Below, piece after piece: positions 3,829 to 39,410 of a stretch of 39,678 bases of DNA. The first letter of the stretch is position 1, and the number at the start of each line of letters is the position of its first letter. Position numbers and translations under genes: made by a program. The notes under the pieces are model-generated. The model searched no databases. It was not told the origin of the DNA and was given only the letters and a program-made list of their open reading frames with translations. Source of the stretch: a virus; IMG/VR virus record IMGVR_UViG_3300034682_000226, positions 1 through 39,678 of that record; one strand, given 5' to 3'.

Positions 3829-5115
3829 TTACCAGGTGACCTTGGTACCCAGTGCCAGACCTTCCGGATGACGGAAGCCCACGTCGTGGTTGCCGACTAG
3901 GCGGATCAGCGACTGGTTGCGGGAGAAGGCGCTGACCAGATCGCCGTTGGTGTCCTTGTAGGTGGCTTCAGTGGAGAAGTCGATGGTCATGTTGTCCTGC
4001 TCGCCGATCACCACGTCGTTCCAGTCGGCGAAGTAGATCTCCGACTCGTTGGTACCGGTGCCGAGGTTGGCCGGGATGGTGTTGGTGTGCGCAATGGGGT
4101 AACCCTTGAGCAGGCCAGACGCCATCTCCGGATAGACCTTGTTGCCGTTGCCATCGCGCAGGCCGAACAGCTTCATCCAGGTGCGCGGGCTCATACCCCA
4201 GCCAGGGTTGATCATCAGGCTGTTGGAGTTCATCAGCATCAGGATGAGCTTGTCCAAGTAAGCGTCGATGGTCGGCAGGTCGGCGGTACCAGCCCACTCG
4301 ATGGTGCGGCTATTGTCGGTCGCAACCTTCTTGAAGCCGGTCGGGGTGTTGCCGGTGCCGTCATCGCGCAGGAAGGCTTTATCCTCGCGCACCGCCATGG
4401 CGGCGATCATGTCGCTCAGCACCAGCTGTTCGACGTTGTAGCCAGCGCGGCCGATCAGCTGGTTGCTGATAGGCACCAGGGTGATCATGGTCTTTGCGGA
4501 CAGCTTCACATCGTTGAACTGGCTGGCGCTGCTGTTGGCATCCGTGCCCTCGCCAACGTAGCTAGACTGGGCACCGCCACTCATGCGAGGCAGAGAGAGG
4601 GTGCCATTGGGCAGCGGAAGTACGCGGGCACCCAGCTTGCGCACAATGGTCTTGGGTCGCAGCAGCTCGATCACTTCGGAATGCAGGTTCTCGGGGATCA
4701 GGGCGCCACCGGAACCGGCGGCGGTGCTGATGGCCATAGCCACCTGCTTATCGCCGATCTCTGTGGCGGCGAACTTCTCTGCCAGTTGCAGATCGCCCTT
4801 GCCGGCCGCGACTGCCATCGCCATACGGGCAAAGCCTGCTCCCTGATATTGTTTAAGCTCCTGATTCACATGGACAGCCGGAGGCGCCTGGGAGCCGTGA
4901 GCATTGACCGGTACAGCCTGCTGCGCCATCAGGCGCTCGGCGCTCTCCTGACGGGCGATGGCTGCGCTGATCTTGTTTGCTTCGCTCTCTAGGTCAGCAA
5001 ACTGCTGCAGTTGCTCGTCGGTTAGGGCAGTACCGCTGGCTTCGAGTTCTGCCAAGGCTTTGACCTGGGCGGCGATTTCGCCACGCTCGCGGCGGAGGGC
5101 TTCGATAGTCTTCAT
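3829..5115 (-). CDS. Major capsid protein, HK97 fold
   Basis: The 428-residue product forms the icosahedral shell. The start at 5115 (MKTIEALRRER) has AAAGGAAA upstream; the further in-frame ATG at 5136 lies in the terminator stem. Residues 1-70 are a charged coiled coil, the delta domain that acts as internal scaffold and is removed by the head protease. From about residue 130 comes the HK97-fold body with 'GGALIPENLHSEVIELL' and 'IVRKLGARVLPLPNGTLSLPRM', both typical of this family. It follows the protease and portal genes in standard order. A terminator-like hairpin just upstream may adjust its expression. Confidence 0.95.
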   Translation of the reverse strand: MKTIEALRRERGEIAAQVKALAELEASGTALTDEQLQQFADLESEANKISAAIARQESAERLMAQQAVPVNAHGSQAPPAVHVNQELKQYQGAGFARMAMAVAAGKGDLQLAEKFAATEIGDKQVAMAISTAAGSGGALIPENLHSEVIELLRPKTIVRKLGARVLPLPNGTLSLPRMSGGAQSSYVGEGTDANSSASQFNDVKLSAKTMITLVPISNQLIGRAGYNVEQLVLSDMIAAMAVREDKAFLRDDGTGNTPTGFKKVATDNSRTIEWAGTADLPTIDAYLDKLILMLMNSNSLMINPGWGMSPRTWMKLFGLRDGNGNKVYPEMASGLLKGYPIAHTNTIPANLGTGTNESEIYFADWNDVVIGEQDNMTIDFSTEATYKDTNGDLVSAFSRNQSLIRLVGNHDVGFRHPEGLALGTKVTW

Positions 5116-5158: not shown

Positions 5159-5182
5159 GTTGGGATGGACTCCGCCGCTGGG

Positions 5183-6121
5183 CTAGAGTTGGTTCTGCAT
5201 TTCGATGGCGCGGGCACGAAGGCCGATGCTTTGAGCCGGTTTGGCTGACTTGGCCACGCTAGCAGCCAGACCGTTGAGATAGTCCTGCGGGTTGGCCAGC
5301 TCATCGGCCAGCCCGTTCTTGACCGCCTCATCCCCGCTGTAGAGGGTGGCTTCGGTGGCCTTCACCTGCTCGACTGACAGGCCGCGATAGCGGGCTACCG
5401 AGCTGATAAACAGGTCGTAGGCCTGATCCATGCGGTGATTGATGGCCGCCATGGCACCGTCGCTGAGGGGCTCATGGGGGGTGCCGTCCTTTTTGCGGTC
5501 GCCGCGGTAGAAGGTGGTGAGCTTGAGCCCAACCTCTTCCTCCCACTTACTCACCTCCATGTGCTCCATGATGACGCCAATGGAGCCGCAGCCGCCGGTT
5601 TCACTGACTACCACCTTGCTGCAGGCTGCGGCAATGAAGTAGGCGGCCGAATAGGCTGAGAAGTTGACCAGCGCGGTGATCTGCTTGACGCTGCGCTTGG
5701 CATAGATGTAGTCGGCCAGCTCCTTGCAGCCGACCGCATGGCCGCCGCCGGAGTTGATGTCGAGCACGATCTCTTTGACCCGCTCGTCAGCCAGCGCCGT
5801 GGCGATCTGCGCCCGCGCCCACTCGTAGCTGGTCAGCTCGGTGCAGGCGTTATCGATTTGACCGCGCCGCGCGACCAGAATGCCGTGCAGCGGGATCACC
5901 GCCAGCCCCTCCACGCGGTACTGCGATTCGCTGCGGGCCTCGAGCTGCTTGGGTTCCAGCCCATCCGGCAGGTCATCGGCGGCCATCACCTCGATCTGGT
6001 TGCCCAGCATGCGGGGCATCAGCAGGCTCTTGACCCCTGCCAGCACCTCCTGGGTGACGTAGAGCGGACACCCGAACACCTGGCTGGCCAGATGCGGGTA
6101 GTTGATCATCAGCTTCGGCAT
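5183..6121 (-). CDS. Head maturation protease, S49/SppA family
   Basis: The 312-residue protein cleaves the capsid delta domain during head maturation. It shows the SppA/lambda gpC pattern: 'EIVLDINSGGGHAVGCKELAD' after about residue 115, the nucleophile segment 'FSAYSAAYFIAAAC' with the catalytic Ser in Y-S-A-A-Y, then 'GCGSIGVIMEHMEVSKW'. In the family the active site is a Ser/Lys dyad. It overlaps the portal gene by 13 nt and has GAGG upstream of its ATG. S49 rather than the more common S14/ClpP-like type places this head module with the lambda C-like proteases. Confidence 0.9.
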   Translation of the reverse strand: MPKLMINYPHLASQVFGCPLYVTQEVLAGVKSLLMPRMLGNQIEVMAADDLPDGLEPKQLEARSESQYRVEGLAVIPLHGILVARRGQIDNACTELTSYEWARAQIATALADERVKEIVLDINSGGGHAVGCKELADYIYAKRSVKQITALVNFSAYSAAYFIAAACSKVVVSETGGCGSIGVIMEHMEVSKWEEEVGLKLTTFYRGDRKKDGTPHEPLSDGAMAAINHRMDQAYDLFISSVARYRGLSVEQVKATEATLYSGDEAVKNGLADELANPQDYLNGLAASVAKSAKPAQSIGLRARAIEMQNQL

Positions 6122-26943: not shown

Positions 26944-27450
26944 CTACTTTCCGACGGCGGAAGGCAGGTTCCGCACATTAACGGCTGTCGTGCGGATTAG
27001 GCCAAGCACGTGCTCTGCTGCTTGGGTTCCGATCCGTTCAATTTGGCCGTGCTCCATCCGGTCGATAACGCCGTCAGCGCGGGCATCGTGGATCGACTGC
27101 ATCAGCTTGCCGAACACCGACTGGGCCAGCAGCACTTGCTCAACCAGGTCATCGTCGCTGACGACTCCAGCCGGTAGATCAACCAGCGCCTTGCCTCGAC
27201 TGGTGGCCCAGGCTTCCAAAATCCGGTTATCACCGGTGATCTCGGTTACCGCTACTGCTTCACCTAGGTTCAGATGATGACTGTCGCACTCTGGGTTCAT
27301 CTTGTTGGCCAACACCGTTTCGCCCTTTCCCATCAGGCGGGCAAGCTCGCTGATGTTGTTGTCCTTACCGAGCAGATATGCAGCCAGCAGCACATCTGGA
27401 CGTGAAACCCTTGGTTTACTTAACGTGGAACTTTCGGTTGTCTGTGTCAT
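26944..27450 (-). CDS. CII-type regulatory protein (phage CP76 family)
   Basis: The ATG at 27450 has GGAG upstream; 168 residues. The segment 'DVLLAAYLLGKDNNISELARLMGKGETVLANKMNPECDSHHLNLGEAVAVTEITGD', here described rather than aligned, contains a helix-turn-helix and the N-K-M-N-P motif typical of the phage regulatory CII family (P2-like Cox/CII group). It follows cro directly, overlapping slightly, as CII does in lambda. It probably activates or represses promoters in the lysis-lysogeny choice. Confidence 0.8.
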   Translation of the reverse strand: MTQTTESSTLSKPRVSRPDVLLAAYLLGKDNNISELARLMGKGETVLANKMNPECDSHHLNLGEAVAVTEITGDNRILEAWATSRGKALVDLPAGVVSDDDLVEQVLLAQSVFGKLMQSIHDARADGVIDRMEHGQIERIGTQAAEHVLGLIRTTAVNVRNLPSAVGK

Positions 27451-27452
27451 GA

Positions 27453-27671
27453 TCACTCCATATTCTTCATGACGGAGATTAACTCGGAGCCGTTCCTGCT
27501 TAGTGGCAGTGATGACAATACCGAGATGCTAATACCTTGCTTGATCAGCTTAGGCAGCCAGCTTGTTGGAACTCGCCCCCTCGCACATGCGAGATGGACC
27601 GCCTGAGGCTTGATGCCAAGAACCTTGGCAAGGGCTGCCTTGTTTTTGAAGTGAGCGAGAAGAGCTTCCAC
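27453..27671 (-). CDS. Cro-like repressor (YdaS-type)
   Basis: The 72-residue protein starts at a GTG at 27671 and has the helix-turn-helix 'NKAALAKVLGIKPQAVHLACARGRVPTSW', typical of Cro/YdaS proteins. It is divergent from the CI-type gene and is the first gene of the minus-strand early operon. It would compete with CI at the operator at 27704-27724. Confidence 0.8.
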   Translation of the reverse strand: MEALLAHFKNKAALAKVLGIKPQAVHLACARGRVPTSWLPKLIKQGISISVLSSLPLSRNGSELISVMKNME

Positions 27672-27703: not shown

Positions 27704-27732
27704 ACAGTAACCGTTGGTGCGTGTTTTTGCAA
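27704..27732 (-). promoter_or_regulatory. PR promoter with operator
   Basis: On the minus strand TTGCAA (27732-27727), 17 nt and TACTGT (27709-27704) form a promoter that starts about 25 nt before cro. Between -35 and -10 and over the -10 is the palindrome ACAnnnACCnnnGGTnnnTGT at 27704-27724. The same geometry recurs at 30029-30057. I infer that this is the CI/Cro operator. Confidence 0.75.
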
Positions 27733-27775
27733 CTGAAAGTTCGAATGCGAAATGGGGACAATAGAGGACCGAGAG

Positions 27776-28483
27776 ATGGAACAGAGACAAGAAGAAATGG
27801 CTCGTTATGAGACCGATAAAATCGACTTCGCGCGAAGGCTCAATTTAGGTCTTGATGAGGCTGGCATTCCAAAACGTGGGCGCCCAGCTCGTCTGCAAGA
27901 ATTGCTCGCCAAGACACCATCCACTACTGATGTGCAAATCCCCTCACTCACAGCCATACGAAAGTGGTTAGAAGGTGACTCACTGCCGGAAGTAAAGCGG
28001 CTTGGTACCATCTCAAATATCATCGGAAAATCAGTGCAATGGCTACTGACCGGCACAGATACCAATGTTGACGAAGCGGGCTTGGCCTTGGGAAATGTAC
28101 CGCTGCTTTCATGGATTCAGGCCGGTGCATTCTGTAATAACGGCGATATTCCACTGCTCGAGCAGGTTGACGAGTTCATCCCTAGCCCAGTGAAGGTTGG
28201 AAAAAGGGCATATGCGGTAAGAGTCCGTGGCGACTCGATGGTGTCAATGAATGGGGGACGCAGTTACCCAGAAGGAACCATTTTGATTGTGGATCCAGAT
28301 GCAGTTCCTGAGCACAATAAAAGAGTCATCGCCAGGATTGGTGATGAAACGACATTCAAGGAACTGGTAAACGATGCGGGCCATTGGTTCTTAAGACCAC
28401 TTAACCCCCAATTCCGAATGATTGAAGTAACTGAAGATGTGGTGATCTGCGGGGTAGTTCGCTGTGCGGTACAGCTAGAATAA
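27776..28483 (+). CDS. CI-type lysogeny repressor, S24 self-cleaving
   Basis: From the ATG at 27776 the protein has 235 residues: an N-terminal DNA-binding domain (about 15-92, 'IPSLTAIRKWLEGDSLP' in the recognition region) and a C-terminal LexA/UmuD-like protease domain. Cleavage at Ala116-Gly117 ('IQAGAF'), catalytic Ser154 ('RGDSM') and Lys195 ('ETTFKEL') are all present, so RecA-dependent induction is expected. Upstream in-frame ATG (27752) and downstream ATG (27797) are alternatives. It is transcribed away from cro. Confidence 0.93.
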   Translation: MEQRQEEMARYETDKIDFARRLNLGLDEAGIPKRGRPARLQELLAKTPSTTDVQIPSLTAIRKWLEGDSLPEVKRLGTISNIIGKSVQWLLTGTDTNVDEAGLALGNVPLLSWIQAGAFCNNGDIPLLEQVDEFIPSPVKVGKRAYAVRVRGDSMVSMNGGRSYPEGTILIVDPDAVPEHNKRVIARIGDETTFKELVNDAGHWFLRPLNPQFRMIEVTEDVVICGVVRCAVQLE

Positions 28484-28515
28484 GGGCACCACTCTGACAT
28501 GATGCCCCTTAATTT
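28482..28515. terminator. Bidirectional terminator between cI and the DUF4041 gene
   Basis: AAGGGCA (28482-28488) pairs with TGCCCCTT (28503-28510) with one bulge. T-rich and A-rich flanks lie on the two sides. The two genes converge here. Confidence 0.55.
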
Positions 28516-28520
28516 GCGCT

Positions 28521-29915
28521 TTATGCTTCAACAAGTTCTCTGACTGTCTGTTCCTTTTTTAGCAAGCTGAGTGACTCGCGATACTCAGTAGCCTCTGCTT
28601 TCATTGTCCAGTGAATGTCACTCAAACCATGGCCTTCGATCGCCTTCTTAATATCGGCCAGCGGTAGGCGGAAAAACTCTTTTCGTGGATTCACTTTGTT
28701 GACAGAGTTTTCGTCGAATACTCGATGCAAATCTTTCTCCAAGGATGGAGCGTCATCACTGTAGATCATCGCATGAACATCAAAGTCGAATGGTACCGAA
28801 GCATCACTCAGCTCCTTAACACGATCGAGTGGCTCTAAGCGCCTGGTCATGCCAACCTTGAAGACATTCTCACCGAAGCTGCCAATGTTACTTATGACAT
28901 AGACATGCCCTCTGCGAGTCTGCTGAGCCATTGAGATCGCTCGCTGCCCTCTTGCCTCTGCCTCTTGAAGTTTCGCTTCAAGCTCAGCTAGTTGCGCCTC
29001 AAACAGCTGGCGCTGCTCATCATTTGCACCAGCCAGTTCTTGACGAGCCTTATCCAAGGCTTTTTGTAACATTCGCTCTTCTTTCTCAGCTTCTTTGATG
29101 GCTTTCTCCATCTCACGCTGGGCCCGTTCCTCCTCTCGCATCTGCTCACGGATCTGGCGCTGTTCCTCACGCTCTTGTTGCTGAAGCTCATATGTCGCGA
29201 CAGCCCATTTCAACTCTTCAAGCCGAGCATCGAGATAGGCCTGTTCAATTCGAGCGCCGCGAAATGACATGCCGTTGTGGTTCACCAAAGTAAAGGCGTC
29301 AATGATCTCTTGTTTTATCTTCCCATAGTTGTCGGACTTGACCCTGCTAAGAGCAGAATCGACCTTCCCATTGAAAGCATCGACAACAAAATGGATAGCA
29401 AATTGGCGGCGATATGAGCTGCTGTAATCGCAGTTACCAGCCTGGTTGCTCTGGATCAGGTGCCTAACATTTTTACGCGCAATCTTTAGTTGTTCACCGG
29501 CTTGCTTGTGACTATACGACTCAGCAAGATCATCCAAAACACTATGGTTCGGAATGATGTACTCATCACTGTAACCTTCAATTGCATTTTTCATTGCTTG
29601 AACAGTGCGCTCTAAAAACGCAGATAACTCTTTGTCTTTAGATATTTTTTCATTTATTTCAAGGCTGCTTTTCTCCAGCTCAGCCATGAGCTCAGCAACT
29701 TTATCTTCAGCATTAATAACCAGCATTCTGGTGTACCGCTCTGCATCTTCAATTGGCTGCAGCTTCGCCTCCATCTCGGCATTTCGCACTGCCATTTTCA
29801 CCAGTGCAGAGTCCGCATCCCTCAACTTTGCTTCAAGTAATCGCTTCCTTCGGTACAAGACAAATGCCAAGACATAGGGGCCGAAGAAAACCAGCAGCCC
29901 AATGAACACTTCCAT
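28521..29915 (-). CDS. Membrane-anchored DUF4041 + GIY-YIG (T5orf172) nuclease, SNIPE-like
   Basis: From the ATG at 29915 the product has 464 residues. Residues 2-21 (MEVFIGLLVFFGPYVLAFVL) form a membrane anchor, followed by a coiled coil to about 110. Next come a DUF4041 domain (about 120-235, including 'NHNGMSFRGARIEQAYLDAR'), a second Glu/Arg/Gln-rich coiled coil (about 235-325) and a T5orf172-type GIY-YIG domain from about 336: 'GHVYVISN', 'FKVGMTRR', 'SLEKDLHRVFD'. As I recall, membrane proteins with this combination (SNIPE) cut phage DNA during injection. Next to cI, it is a likely superinfection-exclusion gene. Confidence 0.8.
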   Translation of the reverse strand: MEVFIGLLVFFGPYVLAFVLYRRKRLLEAKLRDADSALVKMAVRNAEMEAKLQPIEDAERYTRMLVINAEDKVAELMAELEKSSLEINEKISKDKELSAFLERTVQAMKNAIEGYSDEYIIPNHSVLDDLAESYSHKQAGEQLKIARKNVRHLIQSNQAGNCDYSSSYRRQFAIHFVVDAFNGKVDSALSRVKSDNYGKIKQEIIDAFTLVNHNGMSFRGARIEQAYLDARLEELKWAVATYELQQQEREEQRQIREQMREEERAQREMEKAIKEAEKEERMLQKALDKARQELAGANDEQRQLFEAQLAELEAKLQEAEARGQRAISMAQQTRRGHVYVISNIGSFGENVFKVGMTRRLEPLDRVKELSDASVPFDFDVHAMIYSDDAPSLEKDLHRVFDENSVNKVNPRKEFFRLPLADIKKAIEGHGLSDIHWTMKAEATEYRESLSLLKKEQTVRELVEA

Positions 29916-30002
29916 AACCCACCCCAAGTAGTTGTTGTTAAACCGGATTCAAGCATCTCGTTTCAAGGTCTCATTCTAACCTCTTCGCTTGCTGCTAAAA
30001 AA

Positions 30003-30080
30003 CACCATAAAAAAACACACACCATAGATTGACGAAACGCACACCATTGGTTACTGTATTTCTCGTAGACACACACCAGT
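30003..30080 (+). repeat. CACACACCA repeats around the PL promoter
   Basis: CACCATA (30003), CACACACCATA (30015), CGCACACCATT (30039) and CACACACCAGT (30070) recur. Each fits the half-site ACAnnnACC of the inferred operator; only the 30037-30057 site has a good second half. They could be secondary CI/Cro sites (OL2, OL3) or a cooperative array. Confidence 0.5.
30029..30057 (+). promoter_or_regulatory. PL promoter with operator, driving the structured RNA
   Basis: TTGACG (30029-30034), a 17-nt spacer and TACTGT (30052-30057) form the promoter; the start should be near 30064. The operator ACG-CAC-ACC-ATT-GGT-TAC-TGT at 30037-30057 covers the same positions as the operator in PR, and the two promoters share the segment GGTTACTGT. 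This makes the structured RNA the first product of the CI-controlled plus-strand early operon. Confidence 0.72.
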
Positions 30081-30102
30081 TAAAAACAAGTGCGAAAGAC
30101 GA

Positions 30103-30156
30103 CCCCAGCCGGAGGGCCAGCGAAAACTGGCAGCGGTGGCAACAGACCGCTTGGGG
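30103..30156 (+). ncRNA. Three-way junction near the 5' end of the structured RNA
   Basis: CCCCA (30103-30107) pairs with TGGGG (30152-30156). Inside are two hairpins: GCCAG/CTGGC (30116-30120 / 30127-30131, loop CGAAAA) and GCGGT/ACCGC (30133-30137 / 30146-30150). The same CCCCAGCC ... AGCGGTG ... ACCGC ... TGGGG series recurs at 30803-30858 in the second half. Confidence 0.7.
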
Positions 30157-30171
30157 ATATAACACCGGCAA

Positions 30172-30321
30172 CCGGGCTGATTCACCTCCCCGCTCTCCCC
30201 TTGAAAGGTGTAATGCGTGCCGACAAGGGTGACCGGAAAACAAAATCAGTGACCGGCTGGCAGCTGGAAAGACAGCGAAGTTAAAGCGAACGAAGCGAGT
30301 GGCGGGTCTGACTCCCCAGCC
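30172..30321 (+). ncRNA. Structured segment between the junction and module A
   Basis: CCGGGCTGATT (30172-30182) can pair with AATCAGTGACCGG (30244-30256) with a two-base bulge and one G-T pair. The enclosed part can form a pseudoknot: CACCT/AGGTG (30183-30187 / 30206-30210) and CCCTTG/CAAGGG (30198-30203 / 30224-30229). Then GGCTGG (30255-30260) pairs with CCAGCC (30316-30321) around the hairpin GCTG-GAAAGA-CAGC (30263-30276). Two base pairs are shared between alternatives. Confidence 0.5.
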
Positions 30322-30326
30322 ACCCA

Positions 30327-30530
30327 CCCGGTGAAAGGCCGGGACACAACTGGGATTGCATTGCAGGTGAGCCTAGGCCCATGGGGTACCGCACGAGAGA
30401 CCCGGTGACCAGTGCAATCCGCAGTTGTGGTGAATAGGCAGGCTGATGCTACGCCCATCGGTGCGGCTCAAGTCCATGAGGGGCTTCCTCGAAAACAGAG
30501 CATGCCGGGATCAGCACCGGCCACCACAAC
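30327..30530 (+). ncRNA. RNA module A (before the tRNA)
   Basis: Hairpin CCCGG/CCGGG (30327-30331 / 30339-30343, loop TGAAAGG), one A, then CACAACTG (30345-30352) pairing with CAGTTGTG (30422-30429). Stacked directly on it is GGATTGCA (30353-30360) with TGCAATCC (30413-30420), leaving only G30421 bulged: 16 pairs in all. Alternatively GTTGTGGTG (30424-30432) pairs with CACCACAAC (30522-30530). Between them is a hairpin GCCGG/CCGGC (30504-30508 / 30517-30521) whose loop GATCAGC can pair with GCTGAT (30442-30447). Confidence 0.75.
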
Positions 30531-30596
30531 AAACCGTCAGTTGGGCAAGTCGAAAGACCTCAGCGCTGACTCCGGATAGGGTAACCGGAAAACGCA

Positions 30597-30660
30597 ATCC
30601 TCTAGGCACATGTGGCCTGATAAAACGAGGCAGGTATAGAGCCCTGCGGGCCTAGAGGAT
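30597..30660 (+). ncRNA. Long hairpin just before the tRNA
   Basis: ATCCTCTAGGC (30597-30607) and GCCTAGAGGAT (30650-30660) form an uninterrupted 11-bp helix that ends six nt before the tRNA. Inside, GCAGG/CCTGC (30630-30634 / 30643-30647) makes a further hairpin. It would set the 5' flank for RNase P cleavage. Confidence 0.75.
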
Positions 30661-30666
30661 GAAACA

Positions 30667-30741
30667 CGGAGATTCGGCAAGCGGTATGCCACCTCATTTG
30701 GGATGAGGGATTCACAGGTTCGATCCCTGTATCTCCGACCA
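30667..30741 (+). tRNA. tRNA-Pro (anticodon TGG)
   Basis: A complete cloverleaf: acceptor CGGAGAT/ATCTCCG, D-stem GGCA/TGCC with a seven-base loop containing GG, anticodon stem CCTCA/TGAGG with loop TTTGGGA, variable loop GATTC, T-stem ACAGG/CCTGT with loop TTCGATC, discriminator A and encoded CCA. The anticodon is TGG at 30699-30701; the C1-G72 pair, A73 and G37 are proline identity features. It differs strongly from typical host tRNA-Pro in the stems, so it is a phage-type gene. It lies inside the structured RNA. Confidence 0.95.
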
Positions 30742-30746
30742 ATTAT

Positions 30747-30858
30747 TGGCGTCGTAACTGGGTAACCAGGCCGTCAATGGGAGTGTAACTACGACTCAAG
30801 CTCCCCAGCCATGGCAGTAACAGCGGTGAGGACACCGACCGCGGTAGGCCCCATGGGG
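30747..30858 (+). ncRNA. Structured segment after the tRNA with junction copy
   Basis: GTCGTA (30751-30756) pairs with TACGAC (30790-30795), enclosing the hairpin CTGG-GTAA-CCAG (30758-30769) with a GNRA loop. TGGC/GCCA (30747-30750 / 30808-30811) can extend it. Then CCCCA (30803-30807) pairs with TGGGG (30854-30858) around CGGTG-AGGA-CACCG (30824-30837), repeating the junction at 30103-30156. Confidence 0.65.
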
Positions 30859-30875
30859 TACGAAAACCCATCCGC

Positions 30876-31172
30876 TCTGGCGATGTAAAAGGCCAGAACA
30901 CAACTGCATTGGCACTGCGCGACCAGCCGCGAAACTGGCACGGAGTGTATAGGCGAAAGGAAGCTTAAGTACCGAGGCTGAACCAGCACCGGCCCAGTGG
31001 GTTAGCTTGTTGGGGATGCCCTGATAAATATCGGAGCCTGCTTCTCAGTCAGTGCCAATGACAGTTGTGGTGAAACTCCTGCTGAGGTTGGGATTGACCC
31101 GTAATAAACCTCTCTAATGGTCTTAAAGACACAGGGAAAAAATAGAGGACGTTGTTGCCCCTCCACCACAGC
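30876..31172 (+). ncRNA. RNA module B (after the tRNA)
   Basis: Hairpin TCTGG/CCAGA (30876-30880 / 30893-30897), one A, then CACAACTG (30899-30906) pairing with CAGTTGTG (31062-31069). CATTGGCACTG (30907-30917) pairs with CAGTGCCAATG (31050-31060), leaving A31061 bulged: 19 pairs. The order matches module A, but the flanking helices have different sequence and keep pairing. GTTGTGGTG (31064-31072) can instead pair with CACCACAGC (31164-31172, one G-T pair). The interior holds CCAG/CTGG (30923-30926 / 30935-30938) and, after the helix, GAGGTT/AACCTC (31084-31089 / 31107-31112) around GGG/CCC. Confidence 0.75.
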
Positions 31173-31191
31173 CAACCGATTTGACCACCCC

Positions 31192-31203
31192 AAGGAGGTG
31201 ATC
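31192..31203 (+). promoter_or_regulatory. Twelve-base perfect complement to the 16S rRNA 3' end
   Basis: AAGGAGGTGATC is the exact complement of the last bases of bacterial 16S rRNA (GATCACCTCCTT). No ATG, GTG or TTG with usual spacing and an open frame follows. It lies in a possible hairpin with CACC/GGTG arms. It may bind 30S subunits without starting a protein, or serve a very short ORF. Confidence 0.55.
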
Positions 31204-31212
31204 ATATCTCCC

Positions 31213-31361
31213 ACCGCAGGGTTACGCGGTCGCCTGGTCCCGCTGTGAAGCGCCACCCAGGCCCTCGCCGAGAGGCGACAGTTTCGAAATGGTAGGTCTG
31301 CCCGTGAGGGCGCACTGGTGCCGACAACAAGAACGGCTGACTCGCTGTGAAGCGCTCAGCC
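31213..31361 (+). ncRNA. Hairpin cluster at the 3' end, four with GNRA loops
   Basis: In order: ACCGC/GCGGT (31213-31217 / 31226-31230); GCCTGG/CCAGGC (31232-31237 / 31257-31262) with inner CGCT-GTGA-AGCG (31241-31252); TCGCC-GAGA-GGCGA (31265-31278); GCCC-GTGA-GGGC (31300-31311); GGCTGA/TCAGCC (31335-31340 / 31356-31361) with inner CGCT-GTGA-AGCG (31343-31354). The second and last hairpins are copies with an identical tip but different, still paired, outer stems. Confidence 0.75.
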
Positions 31362-31379
31362 TCACCACAGGTGCAACGC

Positions 31380-31580
31380 ATGTGGTTACTACTCCTGATG
31401 TTGATCTGGCTGCTCGGGCTGGCTGCTGACCAACAAGCAACACCAACCGTCACCTCCATGGCGGCGCCATCAAGGGCTGTTCCACCGCTCACGATGGCAC
31501 AGGGCTCCAGGCCCTGCCAAACCAGCCCGACATGTTCTCTCCTGGCCCCGGCAACGGGGCCCTTATCCCACAAGCGATAG
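31380..31580 (+). CDS. Possible small secreted protein
   Basis: The ATG at 31380 has AGGTG seven nt upstream. The 66-residue product begins MWLLLLMLIWLLGLAADQQ, a signal-like segment, followed by a Thr/Pro/Ala/Ser-rich part. It is the first possible gene after the structured RNA. The N-terminus is persuasive, the rest is low-complexity, so a chance frame is not excluded. Confidence 0.4.
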   Translation: MWLLLLMLIWLLGLAADQQATPTVTSMAAPSRAVPPLTMAQGSRPCQTSPTCSLLAPATGPLSHKR

Positions 31581-31659
31581 CGGCCCAACAGCGGGTCACG
31601 GCCTCCTATTGCCTGTCGCTTGTGTGATGAGACCAATTTCAGAGATAGCGGAGGCAGCC

Positions 31660-31882
31660 ATGCACCCAAGCGAGTTCATTGCCAAGCACATCAAGGCAAC
31701 GCTGGAGAAAGAGCAATTCCCCCCCCCATGCGATCTCGCTGGGCGTGGCTGAAGCCAAGCGCTATTTCGACCGGACACCCAGCTTTGCCAAAGGAAAGGT
31801 GTTCGATGAGTGCCTCAAGGCGGCCCGCGCAGTAGCAAGGATCGCGAAGAAGGCGGAATCGGCCAAGCAGGCCAAGCCCTGA
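31660..31882 (+). pseudogene. Small gene with a frameshift at a nine-C run
   Basis: GGAGG lies 5 nt before the ATG at 31660. The frame reads M-H-P-S-E-F-I-A-K-H-I-K-A-T-L-E-K-E-Q-F and then meets a run of nine C (31719-31727), after which it stops within 12 codons. Removing one C would join it to the next frame, '...HAISLGVAEAKRYFDRTPSFAKGKVF...', giving about 73 residues that end 'SAKQAKP'. Either this is a sequencing error in the C run, a disabled gene, or a phase-variable tract. Confidence 0.6.
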
Positions 31883-38181: not shown

Positions 38182-38406
38182 ATGCCGTTTCATATCCTGA
38201 CAGAACAGGAACTGGAAGAGCTTACTGGCTATGCAACACCATCAAAACAGAAAGAGGTATTGCAACGGAACGGGATTTATTTCGTTGAGGGAAAAGGCGG
38301 TAAAATCCGCACAACAAGCGAGAATATAAGGTGGCCGCTGCCAACATTGGCAGGGAGAGGTATGTCACCACGAGATGGTGATGGGTTTAACTTAGAGGCA
38401 ATCTAA
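38182..38406 (+). CDS. DUF4224 protein upstream of integrase
   Basis: The 74-residue product begins MPFHILTEQELEELTGYATP and has 'KQKEVLQRNGIYFVEGKGGKI', the DUF4224 pattern (L-T-x-x-E-L-x-x-L-T-G-Y ... K-Q-x-x-x-L-x-x-x-G-I). DUF4224 genes usually lie next to phage integrases and may act like excisionase. AGGGGGC lies before the ATG; the stop codon overlaps the integrase ATG by one base. Confidence 0.8.
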   Translation: MPFHILTEQELEELTGYATPSKQKEVLQRNGIYFVEGKGGKIRTTSENIRWPLPTLAGRGMSPRDGDGFNLEAI

Positions 38407-39410
38407 TGGGGAGACCCAGAAAGTCTGACACTTGGTTACCCCCAAGGGTTTATAGGGGCAAGTCAGCATTTGAATTTCATCCTCGTAGCGGTGGAGCCAT
38501 TCGCTTGGCTCCGCTTGCAGCAACGCAATCTGCCGTCTGGGCCGCATATGAACACATGATGGCCGAGCAGGATGGAGATACGATCAAACGCTTAGTTCAT
38601 GAATTCTTTGAATCGGCAGACTTCAATGACCTGAGCGCTACGACTCAGAAGGATTATAGAAAATACTCCATACCCGTTATCAAGGTATTTGGCGGTATGG
38701 ACCCGTCACGAGTCGAGTCACCACACATCCGAAAGTACATGGATAAACGAGGCCAAAACTCGAAGGTCCAAGCCAATAGAGAGAAGGCCTTTTTCTCCCG
38801 GGTTTTCCGGTGGGCATACGAACGGGGAAAGGTGAAAAGCAACCCTTGCCAAGGGGTTCGCCAGTTTAAAGAAAAGGCCAGGACAAGGTACATAACCGAC
38901 CTAGAATTTCAGGCTGTTATGGACGCTGCAAGGCCAGCTGTCAGAGTTGCCATGGAGCTGAGCTATCTGTGTGCCGCTCGGAAAGGTGACGTTCTCGCGA
39001 TGAGGTGGTCACAGGTCGGCGAAGAAGGCATAACCATCCAACAGAGCAAGACCTCAAAGATCCAGATCAAGGCATGGTCACCAAGATTGATCGCAGCAAT
39101 AGAACAGGCAAAACAACTTGCCGGATCGGTGGTACGTTCGTCCTATGTGATCTGTAAGCCAAATGGTACCCCATATACAGACAACGGTTTTAATGCTGCT
39201 TGGAGGGAGGCCGTGCTGACGGCAAGGGAACAAACTGGTTGGCCTATGGACTTCACCTTCCACGACATCAAGGCGAAGGCCATATCCGATGTAGAAGGTA
39301 GCAGTCGTGATAAGCAGCGGATCAGCGGACACAAAACGGAGGCGCAGGTTGCAGCTTACGACCGTTCAATCGAAGTTGTCCCTGCTGTTGATAGCGTGAA
39401 AAAACGCTGA
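38406..39410 (+). CDS. int: Tyrosine-recombinase integrase
   Basis: The 334-residue enzyme inserts and excises the prophage at the tRNA-Leu gene. It has an arm-binding N-terminus and a core-binding domain from about residue 60. The catalytic set is Arg192 (A-A-R-K-G-D), Lys215, His286 with Lys289 (F-H-D-I-K) in place of Arg, His309 (S-G-H-K) and Tyr318 (A-A-Y-D-R). Lys at the H-x-x-R position is tolerated in many phage integrases. The gene ends about 100 bp from the tRNA 3' end, typical for site-specific prophages. Confidence 0.95.
   Translation: MGRPRKSDTWLPPRVYRGKSAFEFHPRSGGAIRLAPLAATQSAVWAAYEHMMAEQDGDTIKRLVHEFFESADFNDLSATTQKDYRKYSIPVIKVFGGMDPSRVESPHIRKYMDKRGQNSKVQANREKAFFSRVFRWAYERGKVKSNPCQGVRQFKEKARTRYITDLEFQAVMDAARPAVRVAMELSYLCAARKGDVLAMRWSQVGEEGITIQQSKTSKIQIKAWSPRLIAAIEQAKQLAGSVVRSSYVICKPNGTPYTDNGFNAAWREAVLTAREQTGWPMDFTFHDIKAKAISDVEGSSRDKQRISGHKTEAQVAAYDRSIEVVPAVDSVKKR

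Follow-up and report, generated by a model that had tools for sequence, protein, structure and literature searches.

Early promoters and structured RNAs in described systems

In the immunity region of phage lambda, PL with OL and PR with OR are located around cI. The locus studied here lies in a viral DNA stretch of 39,678 nucleotides (IMG/VR record IMGVR_UViG_3300034682_000226), hereafter called the window, and resembles lambda in that divergent early promoters with matched operators flank cI, cro and cII lie under PR, and the integrase is found at the far PL end. The two systems differ in their operator sequences and in the first PL product, which is N in lambda and appears to be a large structured RNA here.

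PL-like promoters that yield noncoding RNA have been described. The dicBF operon of the Qin cryptic prophage in E. coli has a PL-like promoter, dicBp, with operators for the CI-like DicA and the Cro-like DicC, and its transcript is processed to the noncoding RNA DicF (PMC10448788). The likeness is a noncoding RNA made from a PL-like promoter under a CI-like repressor; in contrast, DicF is a small sRNA cut from an mRNA and belongs to one immunity type, whereas the RNA here is large, structured, and located at the 5' end. In HK022, a structured RNA, putL, is likewise transcribed first from PL (PMC9378689). However, put is about 70 nt long and has a second copy on the PR transcript, and no such second copy was found here by short-word BLAST.

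Among large phage and prophage RNAs, GOLLD and ROOL resemble this RNA in size and in having tRNAs near or inside them, and GOLLD expression is reported to rise during phage lysis (PMC12286853). The conserved part of GOLLD is the 3' part in that account, whereas the 5' part is conserved here. The Rfam models of GOLLD and ROOL gave no match at the gathering threshold in the window, nor at E values up to 5 in positions 29900-31700. The RNA weakly resembles Rfam RF03044 (Proteo-phage-1), whose full-length model matched 30103-30173 with two adjacent hairpins and a common tail, AACACCGGCA.CC; the match scored 26.7 bits, short of the gathering score of 42, and the RNA is therefore not a member by the Rfam rule. 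Searches confined to open-licence literature listed no description of this RNA or its promoter. Judged from the sequences, the regulation would follow classical lambda logic, and what appears new is a large modular noncoding RNA fixed as the first PL product across immunity types.

Gene layout of the immunity region

The genes that define the region are as follows.

26944-27456, minus strand: cII-like gene (Phage_CP76).
27453-27671, minus strand: cro-like gene of 72 aa, named from a weak P22_Cro match, its position, and homologues in the related phages L016 and L007.
27776-28483, plus strand: cI-like repressor gene with an S24 peptidase domain (PHROG: transcriptional repressor).
28521-29927, minus strand: accessory gene (T5orf172/DUF4041) lying between cI and PL, which is missing or replaced in relatives.
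38406-39410, plus strand: integrase gene at the distal end of the plus-strand stretch downstream of PL.

The start of the cI-like gene was set from L016 and others, and its open reading frame opens at 27752. The repressor and Cro-like genes are divergent with a matched operator between them, the P22_Cro match being below its cut-off, and the same operator recurs at a second promoter beyond cI that is directed away from cI. This layout is consistent with the lambda layout, with the RNA in the place of N and nutL. None of the seven plus-strand proteins scanned downstream of PL matched an N family. Past the RNA, the plus-strand genes include those for a Dam-domain protein, a single-strand DNA binding protein, and the integrase, which adjoins a tRNA-Leu at the end of the record; a single continuous transcript would run from PL to the integrase.

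Two other features of the region were observed. At 31661-31882 of the window, a gene is split between two frames that meet in a stretch of nine C, and its apparent homologue in L032 is intact; a frameshift, a sequencing error, or phase variation may account for this. Among the 9 of 24 relatives' loci that were searched, the C4 antisense, isrK, and c4-a1b1 RNA families matched the minus strand downstream of cII in L006 (2866-3109) and L015 (3896-4139).

A twin palindrome at the putative PR and PL promoters

The putative promoter and operator features are as follows.

27704-27724: OR site, a 21-bp palindrome within PR, with the core AACCGTTGGTG at 27709-27719.
27704-27732, minus strand: putative PR promoter of cro, TTGCAA-17-TACTGT, with a weak -10 box and missed by the consensus scan.
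27731-27741: second OR-like site, AACTGAAAGTT, which is conserved in L016 and stands 22 bp away from the first.
30015-30035: upstream OL half-site, ACACACACCATAGATTGACGA, overlapping the -35 box.
30029-30057, plus strand: putative PL promoter, TTGACG-17-TACTGT, at a homologous position in 14 relatives.
30037-30057: main OL site, a 21-bp palindrome that is the twin of the PR site.
30070-30084: downstream OL half-site, CACACACCAGTTAAA, 32 bp off the main site, a spacing shared with L016.

An exact 21-bp palindrome was present at 27704-27724, in the cI/cro gap, and at 30037-30057, before the RNA, with no third copy in the record. The pattern ACRNNNACCNNNGGTNNNTGT matched only at 27704-27724 (both strands) and 30037-30057, and the reversed pattern, used as a control, gave 0 matches in the record. 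With a mean of 0.01 matches in shuffled sequences, chance was ruled out as the source of the twin palindrome. Looser patterns were less discriminating in the window. The inner core alone, ACCN3GGT, was unspecific (8 found, 7.0 expected), the relaxed 11-bp core was found 18 times against 7.6 expected, and the 21-mer with up to three mismatches was found 47 times against 43.1 expected.

The hexamers of PR (TTGCAA at 27732-27727 and TACTGT at 27709-27704) lie on the minus strand and those of PL (TTGACG at 30029-30034 and TACTGT at 30052-30057) on the plus strand, each pair with a 17-nt spacer, and the main OL site is located between the -35 and -10 boxes of the rightward PL. The first-pass annotation had given these hexamers, spacers, opposite orientations, and coordinates, all of which are correct in the sequence, and the palindrome that it took as the same operator at PR and PL is indeed present at both positions. 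The outer TGT of the palindrome is part of the -10 hexamer at PR and PL alike, so it provides no independent evidence for an operator. Both -10 boxes are weak, since TACTGT has three of the six consensus letters, and a consensus promoter scanner run over the window called neither PR nor PL; in L007 and L020, the same scanner called the homologous PL as the sole promoter-like site in the stretch scanned.

The annotation had also claimed extra half-sites around PL, and these CACACACCA elements are real and in register. The 11-bp core centers on the PL side are at 30025, 30047, and 30079, with spacings of 22 and 32 bp, and L016 showed the identical spacings with better palindromes (counted by eye). 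The window has one full site and two half-sites at PL and one full and one weaker site at PR, and multiple operator sites per promoter are clearer in L016 and in the phages with TAAC-type operators than in the window.

The expectation that a scan of the whole prophage would find the operator at PR and PL only held for the exact 21-mer of the window, but not for the relatives with TAACN5GTTA operators, in which 7 of 9 loci (L004, L005, L007, L013, L014, L020, and L024) have a further operator-like dyad at the cro-cII border or cII start, for example at 3790-3804 in L007. This dyad was absent from the remaining two loci, L006 and L015.

The structured RNA

The RNA features are as follows.

30064-31209, plus strand: structured RNA region, with its 5' end placed from PL and its 3' limit where downstream homology resumes at about 31210.
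30103-30279, plus strand: conserved 5' domain (model R1), the first 71 nt of which resemble RF03044 below threshold.
30667-30741, plus strand: tRNA-Pro(TGG) with encoded CCA, inside the RNA region.

Minimum free energy z-scores were weak and not strand specific, and covariation was therefore used as the evidence for an RNA. In an alignment of 12 sequences covering the first 260 nt, a 60-pair consensus had 10 pairs changed on both sides, compared with 3.5 in shuffled alignments (0/500), and slid controls gave 0 to 2, a control in which the consensus structure is favored because it was derived from the tested alignment. One measure, that of further pair types, did not exceed the shuffles (387/500). 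The changes on both sides of pairs establish that this is a real structured RNA. Its region is modular, spanning about 420 to 1120 nt in the sequences cut, and contains repeated elements in the window. At the gathering threshold, Rfam found only tRNAs in the window, and among the loci scanned, the tRNA-Pro was present only in the window and L015. No plus-strand terminator-like site was found in the RNA in three stretches scanned, which fits an early-operon leader, possibly a processed one.

Further features of the RNA and its copies were observed. Within 30103-30279 of the window, local pairing of CCCCA (30103-30107) with TTGGGG (about 30151-30156) would be possible, whereas in the consensus fold the partner of CCAGCCG is CGGCTGG, which lies further on; two mutually exclusive foldings of this kind are a possible switch. 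In L019 (7060-7440), the RNA has lost the 5' domain, and the segment found after the tRNA in the window stands directly behind a PL with its own operator. In L023 (about 5160-5190 and 5791-5976), a short hairpin, CCCCAGCCGGCGGTGGGGACATAACA, directly follows PL and resembles the outer part of the RNA 5' domain, and the order there is PL, hairpin, a 107-aa gene, and the full RNA. A partial RNA copy was also found on the plasmid pIMP4_000369 (L179, about 3930-4640) beside an mph(A)-mrx-mphR(A) resistance unit. This copy has a TAAC-type PL promoter and the operator CTAACCAATAGTTAG, whereas the 5 kb examined contain neither an annotated cI nor an annotated cro, and similar RNA matches occurred in 27 plasmid records from several genera.

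Related phages carrying the RNA

A search with the Dam protein yielded 23 viral loci. Model R1 detected the RNA 5' domain in 12 of them; L019 had the 3' part only, and 10 were without the RNA. Model R1, a covariance model built from 11 sequences, was run on 55 sources, leaving out 10 viral loci that duplicated contigs already included. A pattern scan that yielded 33 viral loci, 11 of which matched the RNA queries by BLAST and 10 of these on known contigs, added L032. The comparison set consisted of 15 phages including the window, 14 with the RNA 5' domain and L019 with the 3' part only; the named matches among the contigs point to Aeromonas.

Other searches did not enlarge the set. A gapped-pattern scan returned nine loci, none of them new; the L007 repressor as a query returned seven, all on contigs already included; and the window's own repressor returned one viral locus, L003, without an R1 match. 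A contig pattern scan gave at least 118 stretches with a 17-base GC-rich pattern that is prone to chance matches. Among the stretches listed, L084 and L094 were weakly similar to the RNA by BLAST, and five others (L064, L098, L109, L139, and L143) had no match to the RNA model better than an E value of 0.11. The exact 21-mer of the window was absent from the scanned loci L003 to L026, and L032 carries a different operator.

Putative operators at the RNA promoter match the cI-cro gap of the same phage

Six different operator sequences were found at the RNA promoter among the 15 phages with homologous RNA genes. Besides the window, nine phages (L004 to L007, L013 to L015, L020, and L024) have TAACN5GTTA both in the RNA promoter and in their own cI-cro gap, and the same two places share AACN5GTT in L016, CACGN3CGTG in L021 and L019, CTACN5GTAG in L032, and TTACN5GTAA in L023. 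The number of such 4+4 dyads per locus was 3 or 4, compared with 0.00 to 0.20 expected in shuffled loci; these shuffles covered L004 to L007, L013 to L015, L020, L021, and L032. The shorter motif of L016, AACN5GTT, had nine matches, with 1.9 expected (two in the cI-cro gap, two in the promoter, and five elsewhere).

A motif-free test, applied to the 15 phages with the RNA, aligned each RNA promoter to the cI-cro region and did likewise with 300 windows of 100 bp drawn at random from that locus. In 12 of 15 phages, 0/300 random windows aligned as well as the promoter; the exceptions were L006 (5/300), L015 (4/300), and L032 (2/300). For L019 and L023, the dyad was already known when the PL position for this test was chosen. 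The promoter and the cI-cro gap shared an exact 4+4-bp dyad in 13 of the 15 phages. The window and L016 shared no such dyad, and their 3+3 counts were not unusual (53/300 and 31/300, respectively), so that in these two phages it is the alignment that argues for pairing with their own operator. L024 served as a fair blind case, as model R1 found its RNA before the promoter was read: all five TAACN5GTTA dyads in its 12.9 kb lie in the cI-cro gap (two), in the RNA promoter (two), or at cII (one).

When promoters were compared across 12 phages, the pairing was not always best within a phage. The L016 promoter scored 13.0 with the cI-cro gap of the window and 11.0 with its own, L032 scored 9.5 with its own and 10.0 with one foreign gap, and for several TAAC phages the higher score came from a different phage sharing their operator type. 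The first-pass claim that the palindrome is the likely CI/Cro operator is supported by the relatives, since the palindromes at their RNA promoters differ and each recurs in the phage's own cI-cro gap. The operator was also kept in L021, which has no gene between cI and the RNA, and in L006, which has no open reading frame of more than 65 aa there, indicating that it belongs to the RNA promoter and not to the accessory gene.

Repressor groups and the junction at the RNA

The first 75 residues of the repressors fall into four groups: the window with L016 and the TAAC phages; L019 with L021; L023 by itself; and L032 by itself. N termini from different groups share no more than 29% identity. The operators of the first group have an AACN5GTT-like frame in common and may be variants of one another. 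Many of the nine TAAC phages are closely related (L004 and L005 have an identical CI), and the 15 phages are therefore not 15 independent cases.

The RNA 5' domain of the window is 99% identical to that of L007 and 98% identical to that of L020, compared with 57 to 58% for the repressors. In 20-base blocks, the identity between the window and L007 or L020 rose from 3 to 11 of 20 upstream to 18 to 20 of 20 from the first conserved base of the RNA, and L016 and L006 showed the same junction (5 to 11, then 19 to 20, of 20). The homology begins about 25 bases past the expected RNA start, and RNAs that are 99% identical stand behind unrelated promoters. These alignments indicate that the whole immunity cassette, PL included, has been exchanged in one piece next to an RNA that stays constant.

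Interpretation and alternatives

We assign a probability of about 0.9 to the reading in which 30029-30057 is PL and 27704-27732 is PR, both under operators of CI and/or Cro, with the RNA as the first product of PL. In a lysogen, the repressor would occupy the sites overlapping both core promoters, and PR and PL would be shut. On induction, the S24-type repressor would be inactivated, probably by RecA-stimulated self-cleavage; PR would then express Cro, and PL would express the structured RNA first, with transcription continuing into the early plus-strand genes as far as the integrase. Because the RNA promoter carries the site of the phage's own repressor, in the window as in its 14 relatives, the RNA is probably not expressed in the lysogen and one of the earliest products once the phage wakes up. 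The lysogeny control of the RNA from PL that the annotation had claimed is likewise backed by the lambda layout and by the pairing of operator and repressor in the relatives. The sequences themselves show the twin sites, the layout, the pairing kept across immunity types, and the conserved RNA structure; we infer which protein binds which site, the start sites, SOS induction, and the downstream read-through.

Two other explanations of the palindrome appear very improbable and were rejected. A host regulator, such as an SOS or nucleoid protein, could act at both promoters, and the overlap of both sites with promoters is what host operators would also show; against this stand the six operators at one position before homologous RNAs, each matched to its own cI-cro gap. 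That the operator changes with the repressor while the RNA stays fits control by CI/Cro and not by a host regulator, which we regard as the least probable reading of all. Hardly more credible is an operator on the PL side that serves the leftward T5orf172 gene, with the RNA transcribed from elsewhere. That gene begins on the opposite strand, roughly 100 bp leftward of the site, but the site is placed between the -35 and -10 boxes of a rightward promoter, and relatives in which the leftward gene is replaced or missing (such as L021, with no gene there, and L006, with no open reading frame of more than 65 aa) keep the site and the RNA.

A further alternative concerns the role of the RNA and not the operator, namely that the 5' domain is a put- or nut-like antitermination element of PL that affects RNA polymerase in cis. 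About 40 nt separate the expected start from the domain, whose pair of adjacent hairpins is similar to the two stem-loops that HK022 putL forms just past PL (PMC9378689), the three stretches scanned contain no plus-strand terminator-like site in the RNA, and L023 has its short hairpin of similar sequence directly after PL. However, short-word BLAST of the window found no similar element in the PR transcript, whereas HK022 also has putR; the RNA region is far longer than put, at about 420 to 1120 nt; and L019 lacks the 5' domain and keeps the remainder after its PL. Because no PR copy was found, this explanation is kept as a rival, and we consider it rather unlikely. For the RNA made first from PL under CI/Cro control, the most likely role is that of a long early leader subject to processing (a tRNA lies inside) or of an ornate RNA in lytic growth. 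More tentatively, it could represent a new class of phage RNA, modular and in some cases tRNA-bearing, in the place of lambda nutL and N, an obligate first PL product that is fixed while immunity cassettes swap at its 5' end and that acts as a cis antitermination leader or as a trans early lytic (for example, antihost) RNA.

No function is known for the large, ornate RNAs of phages, and one of them is now tied to a promoter that would be switched by the phage's own repressor. The link across four unrelated repressor groups would date the action of the RNA to the first minutes of lytic growth, and it provides a simple handle, as removal of CI or induction of the prophage should bring up the RNA. 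The operators of six immunity types could be read from sequence alone. In addition, the 5' end of the RNA marks a fixed recombination junction where immunity cassettes have been exchanged among these phages.
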